A DNA stretch of 64,000 nt, from positions 1-64,000 of the forward strand of contig DASPVQ010000014.1 of assembly GCA_035622275.1 (NCBI GenBank). Reading direction: 5' to 3'. Shown here in pieces: positions 30,258-30,387 of this stretch. Both the position numbers and the translations under genes were made by a program. Below the pieces are notes generated by a model that was given only the letters and a program-made list of their open reading frames with translations, did not search any database and was not told where the DNA came from. Position 1 is the stretch's first letter. Every line of letters begins with the position of its first letter. Source of the DNA: Thermoplasmata archaeon. GTDB taxonomy: Archaea; Thermoplasmatota; Thermoplasmata; Lutacidiplasmatales; UBA184.

Positions 30258-30355
30258 CGGGCTTGCTGGGAGTTCCGTCGCGGGCGACCGCGATTTCGAA
30301 CCCAGGTCGTCGGCTTCGAAGGCCGACAGGATAGTCCAGACTACCCCACAAGCCC
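30258..30355 (-). tRNA. tRNA-Arg (anticodon UCG) with a 23-nt intron in the T loop
   Basis: Leftward gene. Acceptor stem GGGCTTG (30349-30355) pairs with CAAGCCC (30259-30265); the discriminator is G and CCA is not encoded. The D arm is GGGTAGTCTGGACTATCC. The anticodon stem is TCGGC/GCCGA with loop CTTCGAA, anticodon TCG at 30317-30319 (reads CGA, Arg; C35 and A20 fit arginine identity). The T stem CTGGG/CCCAG is interrupted by an insert within its loop. Removing 30272-30294 leaves a perfect seven-base loop TTCGAAT. A TATA box lies 28 nt upstream. Confidence 0.92.
30272..30294 (-). other. tRNA intron with canonical bulge-helix-bulge at position 59/60
   Basis: Reading the tRNA strand: T stem CTGGG, central 4-bp helix TTCG/CGGA, 3-nt bulge AAA on the 5' side, inner stem TCGCG/CGCGA closed by loop GTCGCC, and 3-nt bulge ACT on the 3' side before CCCAG. 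That is the full bulge-helix-bulge structure recognised by archaeal splicing endonuclease. Cutting after the second base of each bulge removes 23 nt and restores TTCGAAT. Confidence 0.88.
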
Positions 30356-30378
30356 GCCGACCTCGAACGGGACGCGGG

Positions 30379-30387
30379 CTATTTTTA
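30379..30387 (-). promoter_or_regulatory. TATA box of tRNA-Arg
   Basis: TAAAAATAG on the leftward strand, centred 28 nt before the tRNA 5' end and overlapping the stop codon of the upstream acetyltransferase gene. Confidence 0.65.

Follow-up and report, generated by a model that had tools for sequence, protein, structure and literature searches.

A predicted bulge-helix-bulge intron in the T loop of an archaeal tRNA-Arg(UCG) gene, and further introns at position 59/60 in Lutacidiplasmatales genomes

A tRNA-Arg(UCG) gene located on the minus strand of a Thermoplasmata contig (30258..30355, 98 nt) is interrupted in its T loop by an insert of 23 nt. On the basis of its predicted fold and of its conservation, we assign a probability of about 0.93 to the reading that this insert is an archaeal bulge-helix-bulge (BHB) intron at position 59/60, in a tRNA that is functional and probably essential and that would be spliced by the endonuclease EndA and by RtcB. 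The same position is occupied by introns in other tRNA genes of this genome and, less frequently, of other families of the class.

Results

The tRNA-Arg(UCG) gene and its splice motif

The window (the whole stretch of 64,000 nucleotides that was analysed) is part of contig C14 of a draft genome of 1.73 Mb (G000), which is 97% complete. All the genomes compared here are metagenome-assembled drafts. The gene adjoining tRNA-Arg(UCG) encodes the DNA polymerase DP2, whose closest relatives are found in soil Thermoplasmata with 66-85% identity. These matches include Candidatus Lutacidiplasma silvani AcS3-62, and the host was therefore placed in the Lutacidiplasmatales (GTDB UBA184) group.

The gene displays a tRNA cloverleaf with an acceptor stem of 7 bp, the anticodon loop CTTCGAA (anticodon UCG) and the T stem CTGGG/CCCAG. 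The T loop comprises 30 nt instead of the normal 7, and the removal of positions 30294-30272 restores the sequence TTCGAAT. The 5' exon (30295..30355, minus strand, 61 nt) ends with TTCGAA, the last A being tRNA position 59; this limit is based on the fold and on the exon/intron conservation in 64 sequences. It is followed by the putative intron ATCGCGGTCGCCCGCGACGGAAC (30272..30294, minus strand, 23 nt), delimited from the fold, the conservation and an empty site in the sister genus g36, and by the 3' exon (30258..30271, minus strand, 14 nt), which contains T60, the 3' strands of the T stem and of the acceptor stem, and the discriminator. The mature tRNA would thus be of 75 nt. The splice motif of type hBHBh' extends over 30266..30305 (minus strand) and was delineated by folding and covariation. 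It is composed of the T stem (30305-30301/30270-30266), a central helix formed by TTCG (30300-30297) and CGGA (30277-30274), two bulges of 3 nt (AAA, 30296-30294; ACT, 30273-30271) and an inner stem (30293-30288/30283-30278).

The unconstrained fold of the 98-nt transcript has a minimum free energy of -49.8 kcal/mol (z -3.5; none of 200 shuffled sequences is equal to it). This fold consists exactly of the cloverleaf, the TTCG/CGGA central helix with the AAA and ACT bulges, and an inner stem of 6 bp (TCGCGG/CCGCGA). Among shuffled 23-mers, only 0.02% reach a complete central helix (4/4) together with an inner stem of 5 bp or more. Folding of the spliced form gives a standard cloverleaf with the consensus loop restored. 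The initial annotation had proposed a T-loop BHB intron at 59/60, and both the free folding and the conservation in 64 sequences bear this out; its central helix, bulges and T stem are retained here, while the inner stem is of 6 bp and not of 5 bp as it had given.

Standard tools do not recognize this gene. ARAGORN misfolds and misplaces it (30279-30357), and the Rfam tRNA model attributes to it 20.8 bits for a cut-off of 29 bits. A search of the whole window with Rfam at the gathering threshold gave no match, the tRNA model being disrupted by the insert in the T loop. A TATA-like box A, TAAAAATA (30380..30387, minus strand), is located at -32 to -25 of the gene and overlaps the stop codon of the upstream gene for a GNAT acetyltransferase (31002-30385, minus strand). 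The A/T residues at -29 to -25 are conserved in 61 relatives, where the usual form is CAAATA behind GGAAC. The CGA codon is in use in the window, with 20 occurrences across six genes.

Conservation of the intron and empty sites

The gene was searched in 121 relatives and the loci were then inspected. A tRNA-Arg(UCG) with a T-loop intron is present in 62 of the 73 genomes of the same genus (own genome counted). The 11 remaining genomes are drafts that are 56-80% complete and display at most short or weak matches to the gene. No intron-less copy was detected among the same-genus genomes searched. An alignment was made of 64 T arms, 62 from the same genus and two from other genera. All 64 introns are different, with lengths of 23-38 nt, and excision restores TTCGAAT in 64/64 cases. 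In the central helix, the C-G and G-C pairs are invariant and the two U pairs alternate between U-A and U-G. T60 is fixed, and the third nucleotide of the 5' bulge, which is the first nucleotide of the intron, is free. This pattern marks the probable cut sites, after A59 and before T60.

Within the same family, the genus g36 (G123, G126 and G133) has an orthologous tRNA without the insert, with the T loop TTCGAAT. The insert is present in the tRNA-Arg(UCG) of the genera g37, g38, g39, g40 and g41 of this family, and outgroups of the class have a tRNA-Arg(UCG) without T-loop insert. The distribution points to a gain or a loss of this intron within the family. In a genome from another family of the same order (G075; L194, G075:C20:5591-6600), the T loop of tRNA-Arg(UCG) is intact, and a repeat-filled sequence of roughly 250 nt interrupts the gene at or near 37/38.

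Other tRNA introns in the genome

The tRNA genes of G000 were recorded by reading the low-scoring tRNA candidates individually, which gave 44 genes. Nineteen of these contain a total of 21 introns, 17 of which are at non-canonical positions. The initial annotation had noted a single T-loop intron; this intron is real, and the genome holds 59/60 introns in at least 13 tRNA genes, the window gene included (Arg-UCG, Arg-UCU, Asn, Glu-CUC, Ala-GGC, Ser-GCU, Ser-GGA, Ser-CGA, Gln-CUG, Gly-UCC, Lys-UUU, Asp and Leu-UAG). The twelve further genes correspond to the loci L028-L030, L184, L186-L189, L191-L193 and L289. Introns in the D loop, each with a canonical central helix of 4 bp, are found in L183 (initiator Met), L185 (Arg-GCG), L192 (Lys-UUU) and L289 (Leu-UAG), so that the genes for Lys-UUU and Leu-UAG contain two introns each, one in the D loop and one in the T loop. 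The four introns at 37/38 belong to Met, Tyr, Leu-UAA and Trp. The last one, in tRNA-Trp(CCA) (L199, G000:C27:94700-95167), is long; in other archaea, the 37/38 intron of tRNA-Trp holds a box C/D RNA. No gene for tRNA-His, Glu-UUC or Pro-UGG was detected among the tRNA genes of G000; gaps in the assembly, or the interruption of these genes by several introns, may account for this. Two matches of the model R1 (C24:64280 and C19:75566) were rejected on inspection as not being tRNAs. Of the 13 genes with a 59/60 intron, 10 score under the Rfam tRNA threshold. The comparison of the introns of G000 gave no clear signal of highly similar introns shared between tRNAs (5 of 66 pairs at p<=0.05, for 3.3 expected).

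In 17 T-arm introns, mostly belonging to different tRNAs, 93.3% of cells are paired under the proposed structure, versus 66% after shuffling, and pairing falls to 52-61% when the partners are slid by one column. The tRNAs with G57 have a full central helix of 4 bp, except Asn, which contains a C.C mismatch. In G000, all seven tRNAs with A57 have a G, and not a U, opposite this residue, which gives three standard pairs and an A57.G pair; elsewhere, G is found opposite A57 in four of five cases and the remaining example, from family f23, has a U. The motifs are overall canonical or near-canonical, those with A57.G or C.C not being strictly canonical BHB.

These data bear on two readings in which the window gene is not spliced. 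The insert could be retained, and a tRNA with an expanded T loop charged and used as such. Stable hairpins inside tRNA arms can be tolerated in some organelles, but contact with the D loop is required of the T loop, the bulges and the central helix are conserved while the body of the intron varies, the sister genus has a tRNA-Arg(UCG) without insert, and 13 tRNAs share the same splice anatomy. Retention is thus very improbable. A pseudogene or an assembly artefact could be suspected from a draft genome and from a gene that standard tools miss; this is hardly credible given an intact cloverleaf and promoter in 62 separately assembled genomes. Moreover, another intact tRNA-Arg(UCG), whose existence the initial annotation had named as an argument against its own proposal, was looked for and not found among the 44 tRNA genes of this 97% complete genome.

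Distribution in Thermoplasmata

A pattern search with GGTTCRAAN{15,45}TCCC gave a strong excess over the reversed control, yet it mixes ordinary tRNA ends with introns. It was replaced by a covariance model (R2) built from intron-bearing T arms and run with permissive filters on 34 genomes. R2 recovers 12 of the 13 known 59/60 introns of G000. At E<=1, this model has 4-12 matches per genome in the Lutacidiplasmatales family, about 1-5 per genome in most other families of the class, and none in the families f19 and f15 (three genomes). Several of the matches outside the family proved on inspection to be complete tRNAs with a full canonical BHB, Arg-UCU and Lys-UUU being frequent among them. The AT-rich genome G074 has eight matches, most of them doubtful; Lys-UUU alone was verified as a tRNA, and several weak matches are probably due to chance. 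Larger surveys were made with strict filters and with an upper limit on the number of candidates scored, so that their counts are lower bounds, and the permissive run on 34 genomes is the fair comparison; outside the class, they gave sparse candidate matches.

The splicing endonuclease

G000 contains an RtcB gene and a single EndA gene, encoding one fused protein of about 364 aa in which the N-domain (PF02778) and the C-domain (PF01974) each occur twice. From this fused architecture, EndA is classified as alpha'2-like. The nearest solved structures by sequence are the Methanopyrus kandleri enzyme (5X89, best) and the Archaeoglobus fulgidus alpha'2 enzyme. The conserved segments GFKYG.HFR, HARYL and GV[RK]K hold the expected Tyr, His and Lys, which we take to be the catalytic residues. 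The crenarchaeal specificity loop (CSL) would presumably be located in the N-terminal part of the catalytic half. There, EndA aligns to the alpha subunit of Methanocaldococcus jannaschii almost without gaps, and no insertion of CSL/ASL type was seen in this sequence alignment. All the sampled genomes with T-loop introns have a long EndA (about 350-364 aa), and the three sampled genomes without T-loop introns (f19 and f15) have a short one (about 290 aa), like the 288-aa Ferroplasma enzyme.

The initial annotation had concluded that an ectopic intron in a genome of this type implies a broad-specificity endonuclease, and had proposed to classify EndA by its loop. This classification gave no broad-specificity loop by alignment to the M. 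jannaschii alpha subunit, and the conclusion finds no support in a fused enzyme in which no CSL/ASL was seen. The canonical BHB is reportedly cut by every archaeal form of EndA, with or without the mature domain of the tRNA (PMC8707768), and for this reason a broad enzyme is not required for an intron at an ectopic position. An EndA of broad specificity, in which a counterpart of the crenarchaeal or ARMAN loop escaped recognition, would be suggested by its best solved relative, the M. kandleri enzyme (5X89), which is listed as "constrained broad" (PMC6379350), by the motifs that deviate (A57.G and C.C) and by the division between long and short EndA. That division is suggestive; it includes few phylogenetic events and represents a single contrast. 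Most of the motifs are, on the contrary, full canonical BHB that any EndA reportedly cuts, and the alignment displays no insertion at the expected loop site. We consider such an enzyme doubtful here.

According to the splicing model that we favour, the T-loop nucleotides 54-57 of the pre-tRNA would pair with the intron's 3' end and form a helix of 4 bp between two bulges of 3 nt. The single fused EndA, probably acting as a dimer, would cut the transcript 3' of A59 and 5' of U60, and ligation of the exons by RtcB would then restore a normal TTCGAAT T loop and leave a free intron. The T loop differs very little from one tRNA to the next, so that a single intron design suits all of them; in this lineage it occupies at least 13 different tRNA genes.

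Discussion

Non-canonical tRNA introns are described as almost exclusively crenarchaeal (PMC3218864), and the euryarchaea with alpha4 or alpha'2 enzymes as having few introns, at 37/38 only (PMC4090602). The standard account ties ectopic tRNA introns to heterotetrameric or loop-bearing endonucleases (PMC4090602, PMC3218864). Position 59/60 is a listed intron position, and the BHB introns of Thermoproteales are found in the D loop, in the T loop and at other sites (PMC4090602). Like G000, the Thermoproteales (Pyrobaculum and relatives) have several non-canonical BHB introns per genome, sometimes two per gene. The 17 non-canonical introns in 44 tRNA genes of G000 are close to the 21 in 46 of Pyrobaculum aerophilum (PMC3218864). 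However, the Thermoproteales have an (alpha beta)2 EndA with a CSL, whereas the enzyme of G000 is fused and alpha'2-like with no CSL seen; moreover, similar introns move between tRNAs in Thermoproteales, whereas 59/60 dominates in G000 with no convincing similarity between introns.

The Asgard archaea are a second intron-rich group (PMC11291895). Atabeyarchaeia and Freyarchaeia resemble G000 in that numerous tRNA genes are interrupted at non-canonical positions, often by more than one intron, but they belong to a different phylum and 92-95% of their tRNA genes are affected, versus 19 of 44 in G000 (PMC11291895). Among euryarchaea, M. kandleri is listed with multiple-intron tRNAs (PMC4033280); its EndA has separate alpha and beta subunits (PMC6379350), unlike the one fused protein of G000. 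The alpha'2 enzymes of Archaeoglobus and Thermoplasma are, as in G000, single fused proteins expected to form a dimer and to require the canonical BHB. The G000 enzyme is longer (364 versus 289-313 aa) and both its N-domains are recognizable.

The 59/60 position and BHB introns are already known, and it is their abundance with an alpha'2-like enzyme that appears unreported. The paper on the Lutacidiplasmatales genomes is silent on introns, and no report of T-loop introns in Thermoplasmata, Methanomassiliicoccales or UBA184 was found in the open-access literature, closed journals or GtRNAdb being places where one is possible. Because 10 of the 13 genes with a 59/60 intron fall under the Rfam tRNA threshold, annotations of Lutacidiplasmatales genomes may report absent or truncated tRNAs in error.

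On balance, we favour the view that the Thermoplasmata have a standing set of 59/60 introns, which grew to about 13 per genome in the Lutacidiplasmatales alongside a fused, alpha'2-like EndA without the known specificity loop. Ectopic introns could then proliferate by keeping the canonical BHB, the enzyme not being relaxed, with a modified central helix and its A57.G pair in the A57-type tRNAs. The presence of many T-loop introns together with such an enzyme in a large lineage makes the enzyme-type rule directly testable, with the empty sites of the sister genus and the intron-poor families as available controls.
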